This document shows positions 7,601 to 29,127 of a DNA stretch of 34,737 bases, piece by piece. Positions within the stretch are counted from its first letter, which is position 1; each line of letters starts with the position of its first letter. The translations under genes were made by a program, and so were the position numbers. The DNA comes from a virus. A model generated the notes under the pieces. The model was given only the letters and a program-made list of their open reading frames with translations. It was not told where the DNA came from and did no database searches. Location of the stretch: positions 1-34,737 of IMG/VR virus record IMGVR_UViG_3300045119_000428; one strand, given 5' to 3'.

Positions 7601-9657
7601 ATCTGCTCGATCGAGGTCGTTACGCACCGGCTGAAGAGCCACCGATTCCAAGGTCACCCTCGAGCGGTGAGCGTCCCCTGGCGACCACCGTTGCCGGTGA
7701 AGGTCCGCTCAACGTTGCTAGCACCGCAGCGCCCCTCGACATCAACCCGTCTGGTCGTCGCCTGACCGACGTGCCATCTGGCACATCAGCCGATCAACTC
7801 GATGCTCTGCTTGAGCGTGGCCGGCATGCCCCACCAGAGGAACGGCCGACGCCGACCATGCTGGAACGGGCGAATACGGTGCGTCTGGCGGGTTTGCTCT
7901 CGAGCACAACCACGCATCTGGTCAATGCCACTGGCAACCTGGTCAACGGTGCGACGGCCATACCGCAGCAGGTGATCGCCAGTGGTTTCGACGCCGCGCG
8001 CGTTGGTCTTCGCGGTGGGACCCGACAACGCTATCTCGGTGAAGTGTTGCCCATGGTCAAGAGCTGGGTGCCTGGCGTGATCAGTAGCGTGCCGGACGCG
8101 CTGGAGATCCTGCGGACGGGGGTCAGTCCACAAACCGCGGGCAAGCTCGAGCACATCGGCGCTGGTTTCCGTTCTGATTTGCTCCCAGTCGTCGGACGCA
8201 TGCTCGGCACGAAAGGCGGCGCCATCGCCGACTCGGCTATCGAGATGCCGCTGCGCATGCTGCAGGCATCGGATGTGCTGTTTCGCGGCGGCGCAACCAG
8301 CGCCTTCACCAACAGTCTGGCGACACGCAAGGCGTTGCAGGAGGGGTTCAAAGGGCCCGCGCTGCAACAGCGGGTCGGCGCGATCATGGCCAACCTCGAA
8401 CGGCATCCCGAGCTGGTCAAAGAAGCCAACGACCAGGCCGCGCGCGTCGTGTTCCAGGAGCAGCGCCAGGTTCCGTTCATCGGTCGACAGGCGGGGAAGG
8501 CACTCGAGGGTAGTGGTGCGCTGCGGTTCGCCGAGTCGCAGGTCCTGCCGTTTACCAAGACGCCGGCCAATATCACGGCGCAGGGGATGGGTCTGTCACC
8601 ACTCGGCTGGGCAAGCGTGGTGCACGCCGCTCGAAGTGGTAACCCAGGCCTCGCGCTCGACCGCGCGGCGCGGGCCTCGTTGGGTACCGCGGCGTTCGGC
8701 GTGGCGACGTGGATGGGCGCACACGGCATGCTCACGGGCGCCTACCCCGACGACCCGGATGTCCGTAGCACGTTGCCAAACGGGTGGCGGGAGTGGAGCG
8801 TGCGTCTGCCGCAGTCAGACGGCGGCGCGGTCTACGTCCCGATGCAAAACTTCGGTGCGTATGGCTGGCCGATGGCGATGGCCGCGATCGCGACCGAGGC
8901 GTCCAGCCAGGGCAAGCCGATGGACCCTGACCAGGTGGGCAAGGCCGTCACGAGCATGGGTCGCTATGTGCTGGACAACACGTTTCTGCAGGGTCTGAGC
9001 GATGCCACGAACGCGTTGCACGACCCCGAGCGGTACGGGCAGAAGCTACTCGAGTCGGAAGCGAGTAGCTTCGTGCCTTACAGCGCGATGGGGCGGCAGT
9101 TGGAAAACATGTCGGGGATGGTCAATCGCAACCCGCGTGAAGGCATGCAGGGCATTCTCGATGCGATGGCCGCCACCAATCCGCTGACGGCAGGCACGGT
9201 GCCGGCGCGGACCAATGCGCTCGGGGACACCGTCTCGCCAACGGTGACCGGTGCCGCTGCCGGCGTGCTCCCGCTGCGTACCACGGTCGAACAGGACGAC
9301 CCGACGCTCAAGGTGCTCCGAGACAACGGGGTAGGGGTCACGAACATCGCCAGTGCGGTCAACGTGCCGTCGGGCTCGGTGAAACTCACCGAAGCGGAGC
9401 AAGAGGACTTCAAGAAGGCCCGCGGCGACCTGATCAAGCGTTACGTCGCGAGCGAGACGCGCAGCCCCGACTTCGCGGCGGCCCGCACCGTGACGGCGCG
9501 CAATAAGTACCTGAGCGATGCCGTCCAGCGCGCGAACCGCGATGCACGCGAGACGATGATCAATAAATGGGCAGCAGACCGCGATACGTGGCGGTCGCGC
9601 ATTGAAAAGAAGGCGGTACCTGAGCCGTACTATCTGGGCGGAACGGAAGGCGCCTAG
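4615..9657 (+). CDS. Giant virion ejection-type protein with lysozyme-like and C39 protease-like domains
   Basis: At 1680 residues this is the largest protein of the phage. Residues ~1-215 are Gln/Ala-rich repeats (QQAAQ, LGGAQ). At ~220-375 there is a transglycosylase/glucosaminidase-like domain with candidate catalytic E265 (SVAKNES). At ~405-530 a papain-fold C39-like domain has C417 in YSACGPAAA and H497 in GHYYFADGY. At ~600-760 Ala/Gly/Gln repeats return, with LGGA units at regular spacing. The C-terminal ~600 residues resemble the long helical bodies of podovirus internal virion proteins (FTKTPANI segment near 1320) and contain hydrophobic stretches. The likely role is to leave the capsid, cut peptidoglycan and form a conduit for DNA. 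The two enzyme domains are visible; the ejection role is inferred. Confidence 0.85.
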   Translation: MPGTLLLDDWRSSVEDQLHQAADQAIATARAAQQATIAPVQQAAQALPQIQAPDPGQVGAALHGYVDQLGQQAQQAAPAVIQLGQDAQQAGAQVLGGAQQAATTALGGAQDAQTQVGDALHQHVNNLLSIGGGAAPVTAINQPPTLGGPQQSNKPTITTLGGGGDQSTVTTLGGSQASAADVSGPPSADTTQSTTAVTAPQSAGASGSIPANYNVPVNKGPTITRAQAEAVVKGTPLEGIGGQIWDLGVKYNVDPAFALSVAKNESAYGDPNVAPMQNQSNNIWDISGGAYGGTPGGRWGHYPTKLDGAEAFYKLITSEYYPKGQDTVGSVMWGPQGSQTHAYAPLSENSSQYPQRLLDTMGNYRQLPGGTAGQPSVATTAPVTTAQARAADLGYKDISQLPQYNPELTSDEAYSACGPAAAVRFAEKFGRNPTLREATDLAKQVGWTAGGGMAGISSEQKLMSNLGIDTKIVGRDWAAYAQEAQTGNPVTISTPGHYYFADGYNPESGAFHVGRSGLDLKGGSEWMTPAQMENLMGQAQGALFANNPTVPNRGNTTSSNAAAPDAINAPTTPAARAPIVMGGMQDANGQPTARGYSGPTLIQTAQDAAGEALGGVGSAVGGAASALGGAAQGAVQGAQQGAVQVAPILGGAASAAGSTVRSVADDLGQAAQGAVNQVQDLNRQTPGTAVVNAAAPVLGGAQEGLSGARDAVGQAAQGTAQSVSEATQAAAPVLGGTAASASQMRQQVQDTIDSLPLNTTVAQARRTIGDTLTELGPRALEVAGDLPLPMGGTVSDLQAPLRGAQAGLQAIEQQRQQQIAEPTDMAGQFQQNVAAARRGDWGAFAQGTFSLAQTGVGQTAMGGGQGDLSQSVSAALTAGGIDPNAARVLGQVANVIGPIALERAIPSVVSASARGATAAVNAGLEAIDRFAPPEVALATTRQAGESADDYLARVSNTASSSFRAPATVGGAAPLDITPSRRLAAPATGTSADRLDYLLDRGRYAPAEEPPIPRSPSSGERPLATTVAGEGPLNVASTAAPLDINPSGRRLTDVPSGTSADQLDALLERGRHAPPEERPTPTMLERANTVRLAGLLSSTTTHLVNATGNLVNGATAIPQQVIASGFDAARVGLRGGTRQRYLGEVLPMVKSWVPGVISSVPDALEILRTGVSPQTAGKLEHIGAGFRSDLLPVVGRMLGTKGGAIADSAIEMPLRMLQASDVLFRGGATSAFTNSLATRKALQEGFKGPALQQRVGAIMANLERHPELVKEANDQAARVVFQEQRQVPFIGRQAGKALEGSGALRFAESQVLPFTKTPANITAQGMGLSPLGWASVVHAARSGNPGLALDRAARASLGTAAFGVATWMGAHGMLTGAYPDDPDVRSTLPNGWREWSVRLPQSDGGAVYVPMQNFGAYGWPMAMAAIATEASSQGKPMDPDQVGKAVTSMGRYVLDNTFLQGLSDATNALHDPERYGQKLLESEASSFVPYSAMGRQLENMSGMVNRNPREGMQGILDAMAATNPLTAGTVPARTNALGDTVSPTVTGAAAGVLPLRTTVEQDDPTLKVLRDNGVGVTNIASAVNVPSGSVKLTEAEQEDFKKARGDLIKRYVASETRSPDFAAARTVTARNKYLSDAVQRANRDARETMINKWAADRDTWRSRIEKKAVPEPYYLGGTEGA

Positions 9658-26322: not shown

Positions 26323-26409
26323 TTAAGGCCAGCGTATATTCAGCAGCAGGCTGACGGTCAGGACGACCAGCAGCAGCCCGAGCCCGCCAAGGAGCAACGT
26401 CCAACGCAA
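26323..26409 (-). CDS. 28-residue single-helix membrane peptide
   Basis: TTG 26409 is preceded by AAGGAG at ten bases and opens a 28-residue frame that is one membrane helix (LLLGGLGLLLVVLTVSLLL). An alternative TTG at 26448 overlaps the stop of the upstream gene and would add a basic N-terminus (41 residues). A frameshift in the upstream gene makes the frame look like the tail of a 186-residue protein, but the helix belongs to a separate gene. Confidence 0.55.
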   Translation of the reverse strand: MRWTLLLGGLGLLLVVLTVSLLLNIRWP

Positions 26410-26441
26410 CTCGTCTTTTCTCCTTCTAAGGGCAGTTATCT

Positions 26442-26883
26442 CTACCAAACACGCTCGAGCAGTGTCAGGCGGTTGGTCTTGCTGCGGCCGGCGCGCGTCC
26501 ATCCGGCCTTGAGAAAGCAGTACCCAGGATTGCTCGAGCGGATCTTCTCGTCGTCGACGTAGGTGAAGTGCCGCTCGCCTGGCCAGCGCTGCCAGGCGAG
26601 TCTCGTCAGCCTCGCGGATCAGGTCACTGGATAAGCCGGCGCCCTCGTTGCGGAACACCGCGCAGTTCACGCCGACCTGGTGGTCGAACCGCTCGATGGT
26701 GTTTCTGATCCAGACGAATAGGCCGCGGCAGCATACGGTGAGCAGCACCATCTGCTCGCCCGGTCCGACGAACTGGACACGTTTTCGGCCATCGGCATAG
26801 CGGCGAGCTGAGTAGTGACGCTCGTAGAGCGCGAGCGCACGCGGGTCGAACTTGTTGCTTGAGAGCCAGTGTCCGTCGATCAT
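26442..26883 (-). pseudogene. Acyltransferase-like phage protein, split by a frameshift
   Basis: The first 96 residues (26883-26596) carry LALYERHYSARRY, VQFVGPGEQMVLLT, GVNCAVFRNEG and SSDLIREADE. At 26595 the frame must move by one base; from 26594 the other frame reads WQRWPGERHFTYVDDEKIRS, then SNPGYCFLKAGW and a LLERVW end, stopping at 26442. Together they give about 146 residues matching, in order, a phage protein family resembling GNAT acyltransferases. An extra C in CGCC near 26595-26598 would explain it. Since frame 0 has no early stop, programmed shifting is unlikely; a mutation or an assembly error is more probable. The family match is from memory of its motifs. Confidence 0.7.
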
Positions 26884-26894
26884 GTCGGCACTTA
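26881..26894 (-). repeat. Leader element TAAGTGCCGACATG
   Basis: TAAGTGCCGnn immediately precedes the ATG of the acyltransferase-like gene. The same nine bases with the same two-base spacing to an ATG occur at 27185-27198 and 27319-27332. There is no Shine-Dalgarno sequence in this copy, so the element itself may be the translation or regulatory signal. Confidence 0.6.
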
Positions 26895-26897
26895 CAG

Positions 26898-27176
26898 CTA
26901 GTAAGCGAGTTCGCCCAACGCGACGGCGAAGGCGTGCACTGTGTCTGGATTGAACTCGTTCTCGTCATTCAGGCTATCGAGCATGACCTGGCCTAGTGCC
27001 AGTGCCGCCTGCAGTCGCTCTATCTCGGCTTGTCTGCGCGCAAGTTCTTCGCCGGCGGCAATCAATGTCTCATCTCGCGAGTCAATCTGTGCTTGGGCCT
27101 CGGCGCGGAGTTCAAACAACGTTGCTACCGTCCCGGTAGCCGCTTGTGGATCAATCTCATGATCTTTAGTCTTCAT
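26898..27176 (-). CDS. Coiled-coil protein with the TKDHEIDPQAAT N-terminus (paralogue A)
   Basis: ATG 27176 follows GGAG at good spacing and gives 92 residues. The N-terminus TKDHEIDPQAATG, followed by TLFELRAE, is nearly identical to that of the gene at 27825-28223. The middle is a charged coiled coil (ELARRQAEIERLQAALALG), and the end is short and polar. A four-codon frame, MEQE-stop, at 27187-27173 overlaps the start and could couple translation. Function unknown; the shared N-terminus probably binds a common partner. Confidence 0.72.
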   Translation of the reverse strand: MKTKDHEIDPQAATGTVATLFELRAEAQAQIDSRDETLIAAGEELARRQAEIERLQAALALGQVMLDSLNDENEFNPDTVHAFAVALGELAY

Positions 27177-27184
27177 TCTTGCTC

Positions 27185-27198
27185 CATAACGGCACTTA
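27185..27198 (-). repeat. Leader element TAAGTGCCGTTATG with a four-codon upstream frame
   Basis: This is the second copy of the leader. Here the ATG opens MEQE followed by TGA, whose bases overlap the ATG of the coiled-coil gene (27176). The upstream flank GGTAGAGGATAAGTGCC (27207-27191) resembles GGTAGAGATAACTGCC at 26447-26432 before the 28-residue membrane peptide. Confidence 0.6.
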
Positions 27199-27210
27199 TC
27201 CTCTACCAAG

Positions 27211-27321
27211 TCACCGGCCTCGCCACCAGCGGACCAGTCGCCAAGCAAGGTAGGCGAGGTAGAGATTCCCGCCGAGAATCATCAGGAAGTTCCGCAGCGC
27301 GAGGGCTTCTTGGTCTGACAT
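27211..27321 (-). CDS. 36-residue membrane peptide
   Basis: ATG 27321, directly after a TAAGTGCCGAT leader, gives MSDQEALALRNF, one helix (LMILGGNLYLAYLAW) and a basic tail (RLVRWWRGR), ending at TGA 27213-27211. The positive-inside tail predicts the C-terminus in the cytoplasm. Too short for automatic detection, but the leader, GC-rich third positions and fit between neighbours support it. Confidence 0.62.
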   Translation of the reverse strand: MSDQEALALRNFLMILGGNLYLAYLAWRLVRWWRGR

Positions 27322-27332
27322 ATCGGCACTTA
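27319..27332 (-). repeat. Leader element TAAGTGCCGATATG
   Basis: This is the third copy of the leader. Its TAA is also the stop codon of the upstream gene (27332-27330), and its ATG starts the 36-residue membrane peptide, so the element bridges two genes. Confidence 0.6.
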
Positions 27333-27644
27333 GATCTGGCAAAGTTCGCGGAGGACGCTACCGGCTACGGCAATCATGAGCGCTCCGTTCGGGCTCGTCG
27401 GGTCAAATTGACGGGTTTCTTCCCGCGTCTCGTAACCGAAAGTGGGCGCTAACCGCTCGTACGTGTCGTGGAATAGCATCGCGACTTCGGCAGCGTGCGC
27501 CGGTGCGAGTGCAGCCCGTAGCCGTTCGACCTCGGCGCGAAGAGCCTTGACCTCTGGTCGCCACGTCTGCTCGATGGCCTGATTCAGGTTCTCGACCTCG
27601 GCGCGGCAGCCGATGTGCACGTCGCTGGTTACGTCGGCATTCAT
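27330..27644 (-). CDS. Coiled-coil protein, function unknown (104 residues)
   Basis: I use ATG 27644 because GGGAGG stands eight bases before it; ATG 27677, overlapping the upstream stop, is the alternative (115 residues). The middle has KALRAEVERLRAALAPAH, a coiled coil similar to those of the neighbouring paralogues, and the C-terminus is helical (NGALMIAVAGSVLRELCQI). It probably oligomerises or joins the two other coiled-coil proteins of this operon. Confidence 0.68.
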   Translation of the reverse strand: MNADVTSDVHIGCRAEVENLNQAIEQTWRPEVKALRAEVERLRAALAPAHAAEVAMLFHDTYERLAPTFGYETREETRQFDPTSPNGALMIAVAGSVLRELCQI

Positions 27645-27669
27645 CACGCCAGCCTCCCAGATTGGCTCG

Positions 27670-27828
27670 CTAGACATTGGTGATCCAGTCGGGCGCTTTG
27701 TGAATGCCGCTCACCTTGCCGCAGCCGGCGCACCTGAACCAGACGATGACGCGGTCGCCGGCCCAGTGCGTCTCGATGTCGCCCTCGTTCCAGCCGAGAC
27801 GGTGAGCCAGCCAGTGTTTGATGGTCAT
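27670..27828 (-). CDS. Small CxxC protein (52 residues)
   Basis: ATG 27828 is in an ATGA overlap with the upstream stop. The 52-residue protein has a helical first part (IKHWLAHRLGW), then a strand and one zinc-type pair (VWFRCAGCGKVSGIHK) with a His nearby; a lone CxxC could complete a zinc site by dimerising. The pattern RC.GCGk is common in zinc-ribbon proteins. Function unknown. Confidence 0.65.
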   Translation of the reverse strand: MTIKHWLAHRLGWNEGDIETHWAGDRVIVWFRCAGCGKVSGIHKAPDWITNV

Positions 27829-28223
27829 AGCAGGGGCGCGAGGTCGTGTTCGATGGCATCGTGCAAACCGTACCAAGCGTCATCCGCACGGTCGCTGTCT
27901 AGTTCACATGCTCGCTCCCACTCGGCATGTGCTTTCAAGACTGCACTCATCGCCGCTCGCAGCCGCTCGATCTCTCCATGTGCCGACTGGGCTAGCAGTG
28001 AACGCAGGTTGTCGTTTGACACACGAAGGCTTGCGTTGGCGTCGCTAAGCCGCTCGACCTCGGCCTGCGATTCTTCCCATGCCTTGAAGTACGCGTAGCC
28101 TTGGCATGCATCAATTTGCCGTCGCAGCCGCTCGACCTCGGCGCGGAGTTCAAACAGCGCCGCCACTGGGACAGTCGCCGCTTGCGGGTCAATCTCGTGA
28201 TCTTTGGTTGACTTATCCACCAT
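27825..28223 (-). CDS. Coiled-coil protein with the TKDHEIDPQAAT N-terminus (paralogue B)
   Basis: ATG 28223 follows GAGG and gives 132 residues. Residues 6-30 (TKDHEIDPQAATVP, then VAALFELRAE) repeat the N-terminus of the 92-residue gene downstream almost exactly. A long coiled coil with several RAEVERLR- and AEVERLSDANASL-type heptads follows, and the C-terminus is acidic. One gene was probably copied from the other, after which the tails diverged. Longer open frames upstream of 28223 belong to noncoding and neighbouring sequence. Confidence 0.72.
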   Translation of the reverse strand: MVDKSTKDHEIDPQAATVPVAALFELRAEVERLRRQIDACQGYAYFKAWEESQAEVERLSDANASLRVSNDNLRSLLAQSAHGEIERLRAAMSAVLKAHAEWERACELDSDRADDAWYGLHDAIEHDLAPLL

Positions 28224-28233
28224 TACCTCTACC

Positions 28234-28380
28234 TCAACGAATCGGGCCAGGCCAGGGCTGAGGGTCACGACCTGTGGAGGGGATAGGCGGGTCGTGGCGA
28301 GACCGCCAGGCGTCACGGATGGCGCCGATCACGAAGAAGATGTACGGCGACAGGATGATCGCGACGATCGCGTATTCCAT
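28234..28380 (-). CDS. 48-residue membrane peptide
   Basis: ATG 28380 interlocks with the upstream stop (TGATG). One helix (YAIVAIILSPYIFFVIGAI) is followed by a basic stop segment and a Pro-rich cytoplasmic-type tail (PPIPSTGRDPQPWPGP). Function unknown; one of five single-helix peptides in this operon. Confidence 0.6.
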   Translation of the reverse strand: MEYAIVAIILSPYIFFVIGAIRDAWRSRHDPPIPSTGRDPQPWPGPIR

Positions 28381-28537: not shown

Positions 28538-28741
28538 CTAGCAGACGACGGGCTGCGCCGGCGGTCGTCCAGCGAGCGGGATGTTCTGCCCGGCCGCGTC
28601 GACCAGCACCCAACCGCTCGAGCCTGTTTGTCTCAAGCACCCCTGTCCGAAGGGGTGGGCGAGGACCAGCCATCCGAGCGCGACGATGAGCACCAGCGCG
28701 GCCGCGACTGCGAAGCGTCGATGTGTCTGTGTATGCATCAT
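28538..28741 (-). CDS. Signal-anchored small protein with two cysteines (67 residues)
   Basis: Tandem ATGs at 28741 and 28738 follow GAGGGGG; the first is in an ATGA overlap with the upstream stop. The N-terminus is basic (THRRF), then comes one helix (AVAAALVLIVALGWLVLA) and an extracytoplasmic part of ~38 residues with two Cys that could form a disulfide. This looks like a small exported, anchored protein. Function unknown; surface exclusion is one possibility. Confidence 0.65.
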   Translation of the reverse strand: MMHTQTHRRFAVAAALVLIVALGWLVLAHPFGQGCLRQTGSSGWVLVDAAGQNIPLAGRPPAQPVVC

Positions 28742-29127
28742 TCCCCCTCTACCCACTTGAGCCATTTGTCGGAGAGTTGCAGCACGTGCTCAGAGCGAAC
28801 CTCTTCGCGCGTCTGCGACATCTGGCCCAGGAAATTGGCCGCGGCCTTGAGGACCGCGAGCTTCGTGATGCGGTCGTCTTTCGGACTCAGAACTGCGGGA
28901 GTTTCGTGTGCGCTCTTGACGACTTCCACGCTGTCGATGAAGCCCTTCGGCTGCAGCTTGACGCGGACGTACTCACCGACTTCTGGCAGCGTCACCGACT
29001 TGAATTGCGAGACGTTGAGCCACTCGCCACGGATTTTGATACCGCGGGCATTGATGGCTTCCACGACTCCCTCGACCAGCCCCTGCGACTCGGAATCACT
29101 CGAGTGATGGCCGTTGGTGCCGATCAT
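28738..29127 (-). CDS. OB-fold-like nucleic-acid-binding protein
   Basis: This 129-residue protein starts in an ATGA overlap. Residues 15-70 have the strand pattern of an OB fold (GLVEGVVEAINARGIKI, then WLNVSQFKSV, VRVKLQPKGFIDSVEVV). The C-terminal half is helical (LAVLKAAANFLGQM and VLQLSDKWLKWVEG), a pair often found together in phage proteins near recombination genes. A single-strand-DNA-binding or annealing-helper role is inferred. No separate SSB is seen elsewhere in the genome. Confidence 0.68.
   Translation of the reverse strand: MIGTNGHHSSDSESQGLVEGVVEAINARGIKIRGEWLNVSQFKSVTLPEVGEYVRVKLQPKGFIDSVEVVKSAHETPAVLSPKDDRITKLAVLKAAANFLGQMSQTREEVRSEHVLQLSDKWLKWVEGE

Follow-up and report, generated by a model that had tools for sequence, protein, structure and literature searches.

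Three copies of one nine-base sequence, each standing shortly ahead of an ATG, raise the question of what this sequence does in the 34,737-bp viral contig analysed here (the window). We found TAAGTGCCGnnATG three times on the minus strand, and exact copies of the longer form TAAGTGCCGNNATG at 26894-26881, 27198-27185 and 27332-27319 on that strand and nowhere else in the window, against 0.0018 copies expected under a first-order Markov model and no match of the reversed control pattern. The original prediction placed each copy before a true gene start. All three copies are exact, but the ATG at 27187 encodes only MEQE* and the actual gene of 92 aa begins at ATG 27176 after a GGAG, so that just two copies stand ahead of a gene start; in the related contig G004 the arrangement is identical to that at the 27176 start (TTATATGGAGCAAGATG). 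The TAA of the copy at 27332 serves as the stop codon of the preceding gene (27677-27330), which locates the motif at gene joints. The flank resemblance predicted near 26447-26432 was recovered as GGTAGAGATAACTGCC at 26446-26431, one base away, and GGTAGAGGTAATGG is present ahead of 28223 as reported. The search for the motif in relatives revealed a conserved element, with the exact motif in five further distinct contigs (G004, G012, G023, G026 and G030).

A palindromic element at gene joints

In G001, the closest relative with 91% identity in the last gene, the motif is absent from the orthologous gene start and its sole copy lies at the stop of that gene as TTTGG TAAGTGCCGTTAGA, the window having TTTGGTAGAGATAACTGCCCTTAGA at the matching place. 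A pattern search with this longer form extended to unrelated contigs, and the arrays there were read. Judged from these sequences the nine bases are merely the middle of an imperfect palindrome of ~36 bp covering the upstream stop and the downstream start, YTTGgtAGAgmTAA followed by a 6-bp core and TTAgnTCTACCAAac. Read from the arrays, the full element is GTTTGGTAGAnnTAA, a six-base core and then TTAGnnCTACCAAAC, which is the inverted left arm; TAAGTGCCG is the end of the left arm plus the core of this cassette-boundary site.

Consensus scanning together with nhmmer identified ~80 distinct sites in ~25 distinct viral contigs, located at the joints of an array of small genes. At nhmmer E<0.05 the sites are confined to one array region per contig and all array sites are oriented in the gene direction. 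The arms are ~15 bp in length, the left one usually holding the upstream stop codon, and the core is 6 bp in most sites with a few variants of 3 or 9 bp. Related sites are also present at the array ends, where no gene follows and the right arms are weak. The arms are inverted repeats of each other (PWM correlation of 0.88 between left and inverted right arms, permutation fraction 0), an estimate from the full set which is partly circular because the first consensus scan was palindromic; in a control restricted to sites selected on their right half only, left arms agree with the inverted right consensus at 5.6 of 11 positions, compared to a null of 2.65 and a maximum of 4.6 in 5,000 trials.

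The carriers form a group of phages, mostly from soil. Element, strand and core order are kept among contigs whose shared structural proteins are only ~25% identical, and carriers G004, G014 and G029 share none of the common structural genes. Among isolate phages we found no nucleotide match to the array region, no significant match to the sites, no match to two large conserved proteins and only a distant match to the major capsid protein. No non-structural protein family is universal among the carriers and two scans of genome contigs found no host. In G026 a RecT match is divided between both ends of the 39.4-kb contig, which is thus probably a complete, circularly permuted genome.

Core types and their order

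The cores fall into five types with a fixed order in the gene direction: TGGTGC (type 1), TTGTTG (type 2), AGATGG (type 3), GTGCCG (type 4) and CTGCCC (type 5). Across 21 arrays 94 pairs of cores are concordant with this order and one is discordant, whereas shuffles gave a mean of 47 discordant pairs and a minimum of 26. The sole discordant pair is in G030, which has a degenerate site and an apparent second array end. Type 1 comes first in 15 of the 21 arrays tested though it was absent from all collection patterns. Two cores are hybrids joined at ATGG, that of G005 (AGATGGTGC) being type 3 on the left and type 1 on the right and that of G025 (TGG) type 1 on the left and type 3 on the right, showing that recombination is possible between different types. 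The last gene of the window, which there fills slot 4-5, is in slot 3-4 in G001 and in slot 2-5 in G002.

Sites and cassette genes of the window

The window reads type 1, 4, 4, 4, 5 and the three motif copies are its three type 4 sites, all sites and cassette genes being on the minus strand. The array is entered through the type 1 site at 28202..28237 (TGAGGTAGAGGTAA-TGGTGG-ATAAGTCAACCAAAG), which holds ATG 28223 and GTG 28220 and was identified by consensus scan, nhmmer and typing. The copy at 27332 lies within the site at 27309..27343 (TTTGCCAGATCTAA-GTGCCG-ATATGTCAGACCAAG), with the TAA as upstream stop and ATG 27321 as downstream start. The copy at 27198 lies within the site at 27175..27209 (TTGGTAGAGGATAA-GTGCCG-TTATGGAGCAAGAAT), whose right arm is identical in G004 and contains the GGAG that is the Shine-Dalgarno (SD) sequence of ATG 27176. 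The copy at 26894 belongs to a half site at 26881..26905 (CTTACTAGCTGTAA-GTGCCG-ACATG), which has retained left arm and core and lost the right arm; at the orthologous gene in G001 this position is taken by a full type 3 site. The last site of the array is of type 5 (26415..26450, TTTGGTAGAGATAA-CTGCCC-TTAGAAGGAGAAAAG; consensus scan, nhmmer and typing) and has equivalents in G003, G005, G016, G023, G026 and G030.

The cassette genes encode a coiled-coil-like protein of 132 aa (27825..28223, beginning MVDKSTKDHEIDPQ) which is a paralogue of the product of 26898-27176, a protein of 52 aa that is 90% identical in G004 (27670..27828), one of 115 aa with a relative in G004 (27330..27677), one of 36 aa with one likely membrane segment and no family match (27211..27321), one of 92 aa (26898..27176, MKTKDHEIDPQ...) and, in the last cassette (26323..26883), a member of the phrog_24928 family of unknown function. 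Compared with intact relatives such as L004:5001-5441, this last gene has a frame break near 26590, which may reflect a sequencing error, gene decay or a natural frameshift. Short, coiled-coil-like proteins with repeated AEVERLRA-type segments are numerous among the cassette products, as in 27825-28223 of the window. A gene at 28738-29127 on the minus strand encodes a 129-aa protein with no Pfam match that might bind nucleic acids, and in several relatives this protein is encoded directly ahead of the array.

Gene exchange at the sites

Comparison of contigs shows the sites to be boundaries at which genes have, to judge from their present sequences, been exchanged. G023 and G025 are ~94-96% identical across most of >20 kb and share nothing between their type 1 and last sites (483 versus 799 bp), identity resuming from the last site onward. 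At eight junctions in six contig pairs identity drops from ~90-100% to background at the core or within one arm; these include the type 1 and last sites of G023/G025, a type 3 site in G022/G025, both ends of one cassette in G001/G005, the type 1 and type 2 sites of G006/G007 and a type 3 site in G017/G019. For the breakpoint test we relied on homologies of at least 90% identity only, 8 of whose 28 ends lay no more than 20 nt from a site in both contigs, compared to a null mean of 0.1 and a maximum of 2 in 2,000 trials. With all homologies included the test is weak, placing 47 of 301 ends near a site against a null of 27.7 (maximum 48), since the majority of distant homologies stop for unrelated reasons.

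The near-identical L009 and L011 differ by ~1.1 kb, in which the phrog_24928 gene is present a second time together with two small genes. The junction falls inside the duplicated gene, and homologous recombination therefore seems active there; we left this case uncounted as an exchange at a site since it is best read as homologous recombination in the duplicated phrog_24928 gene.

Proposed mechanism and alternatives

We consider it reasonably probable that the element is a cassette boundary combining translational coupling with recombination, the latter by a site-specific recombinase whose activity we infer from static contigs, among which no excised circle was seen. By comparison of contigs, the left half of each site moves with the upstream gene and the right half with the downstream gene, a cassette spans the interval between the centres of two successive sites, and exchange between phages has switched at the core or next to it. 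The arms would be recognised by a DNA-binding protein of two-fold symmetry that exchanges strands at the core and would most likely be a recombinase of the host or another so far unrecognised site-specific recombinase acting as Xer does on dif. In its geometry the site matches those of tyrosine recombinases, having two inverted arms, a core of usually 6 bp and modules that extend between successive cores. The carriers have no recombinase in common: serine integrases occur in 20 of the 29 contigs and tyrosine integrases in 6, never both in one contig, and the window encodes neither; those of the carriers look like ordinary prophage integrases. A dedicated phage recombinase was rejected, as no serine or tyrosine recombinase, ERF or RecT is common to carriers.

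A requirement for matching cores would serve as an address that keeps the slots ordered, although strict core identity is contradicted by the hybrid cores in G005 and G025. Carried further, and put forward only tentatively, this would amount to addressed cassette exchange in temperate phages, in which five orthogonal ordered cores allow a site-specific recombinase to swap single genes slot by slot, with stops and starts built into the sites and translational coupling expressing the inserts. Such a system would resemble a multi-site cloning system.

The main rival is annealing at shared linkers, in which the sites are passive short homologies on which general or phage annealing recombination (RecA, Erf, RecT) acts and no dedicated recombinase is involved. 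Shared sequence is expected to host breakpoints and the junctions of the hybrid cores at ATGG look homology-driven; an Erf-like annealing protein is encoded in the window and RecT in 5 of 25 carriers, phage mosaicism has an established model based on short conserved boundary sequences (PMC3233612), and relaxed homology requirements are reported for Rad52-like recombinases (PMC3945230). Homology by itself does not however account for arms that are inverted repeats or for a core length that is usually constant at 6 bp, and an annealing protein is not universal either, with the Pfam ERF model matching 0 of 25 carriers and RecT only those 5. We regard passive linkers as a serious but rather unlikely explanation.

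We think it unlikely that the element is a regulatory site resembling the SAS/ESAS of cluster K, where a dimeric protein bound to the palindrome would control expression and swapping would be a by-product of selection for intact genes. Symmetric arms, a fixed strand relative to the genes and a fixed start position do recall ESAS (PMC3203893), but this leaves array-end sites without a following gene and the five ordered core types unaccounted for. Breakpoints moreover fall at the core and not anywhere between stop and start, and no site is found at the promoter region beside the repressor gene of the window.

The positions of translation signals bear on whether the element initiates translation. 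Start codons lie at -1 (type 1), +2 (type 3) and +8 (type 4) relative to the core and the stops of the previous genes mostly at -12, -9, -3 or +7. The predicted scarcity of ribosome sites was borne out: an SD tetramer is at usable distance in none of nine GTGCCG (type 4) sites with a start 8 nt downstream and in range of 2 of 19 AGATGG (type 3) starts, compared to 8 of 15 type 1 starts, and an SD-type leader is ruled out by the near absence of tetramers at the GTGCCG and AGATGG starts. Since most upstream stops are no more than ~20 nt away from the start, the lack of an SD is consistent with ordinary termination-reinitiation coupling, which would account for the missing ribosome sites; most inserted genes are probably translated through coupling to the preceding gene. 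A non-SD initiation signal in its own right, or an operator, had been proposed from the three copies and agrees with the absence of SD sequences, yet neither can alone account for the array-end sites, which start no gene, or the exchange breakpoints. With a nearby stop sufficient for reinitiation, and with only part of the site preceding the start at an offset that varies with core type, an independent initiation signal is very improbable.

An RNA or single-strand hairpin, whether attC-like or terminator-like, has hardly any likelihood: its arms are inverted repeats, but pairing between the two arms of a site is no better than after swapping arms among sites (8.0 versus 7.88 of 14, fraction 0.16) and there is no Rfam match, the lack of an own-arm advantage indicating that the symmetry probably serves a protein on duplex DNA and not a folded strand. 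Recent local duplication or chance, which the original prediction had set against its own reading and which the two paralogous cassette genes of the window might suggest, can be dismissed given conservation of the element in relatives whose shared structural proteins are ~25% identical and in carriers that share none.

Significance and cargo

Whether phage mosaicism arises from targeted exchange at boundary sequences or from random exchange followed by selection is a long-standing question (PMC3233612). The phages described here have an explicit boundary sequence that is repeated, symmetric and typed, and pairs of near-identical genomes differ by whole cassettes at the sites, making the targeted model directly testable. 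The arrays also point to a putative site-recognising protein.

Array cargo includes a weak DNA methyltransferase match and a SLOG-family protein. The cassette protein at 2721-3485 of L114 (G007) is SspD-like/PAPS-reductase-like (PADLOC E 6.6e-13) and is a putative phage-carried relative of a phosphorothioation-type defence protein. In L112 (G005) the array at ~2840-1730 on the minus strand encodes a queuosine-precursor-transporter-like protein, with a partial match to TIGR00697 below cut-off, and the same cassette encodes a second protein of 209 aa with no family match; together these are perhaps deazaguanine DNA-modification cargo.

Comparison with known systems

Among open-licence papers we found no described system of typed, ordered and palindromic cassette boundaries, and the element falls outside the full definition of both dif modules and cluster K ESAS. 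The dif/pdif modules of Acinetobacter plasmids, which are XerC-XerD sites, share with it a 6-bp centre between two recombinase-type arms, modules running from centre to centre, small accessory genes and replacement of single modules between near-identical replicons (PMC13141974). In contrast to their distinct XerC and XerD arms and alternating C and D modules, the arms here are near inverted repeats of one sequence, the sites are uniformly oriented and the cores are of five ordered types; an Xer partner was not found. Integron cassettes (attC) likewise form promoterless arrays of small genes with the stop codon inside the boundary site, whereas here the site is short and two-armed without own-arm pairing and the site types follow a fixed order. 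No integrase was identified as IntI, and a tyrosine integrase domain is present in just 6 of the 29 contigs.

The nearest described phage element is the ESAS of cluster K mycobacteriophages, comprising 17-bp inverted repeats with a spacer of 4-13 bp adjoining start codons (PMC3203893). The window element has arms of ~15 bp and a spacer of 6 bp and is found at starts and also at array ends. Both SAS/ESAS and the present sites are imperfect inverted repeats with a short spacer beside starts, in one orientation and next to different gene families (PMC3203893, PMC12699233). Identity with the cluster K SAS was ruled out because the SAS 13-mer (5'-GGGATAGGAGCCC) is no commoner than chance in the window, where its two matches, at 8736 and 10828, have two mismatches each and lie outside the array. 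Unlike SAS/ESAS the element described here covers both stop and start, ends arrays and marks cassette exchange, and the core types, order and exchange seen here are not reported in the accessible text on ESAS. In the modular theory of phage evolution, exchange has been proposed to target boundary sequences (PMC3233612), and like such boundary or linker sequences the element is short, conserved and located at gene joints where exchange occurs; it differs from them in being palindromic, present several times per genome, typed, ordered and used gene by gene.
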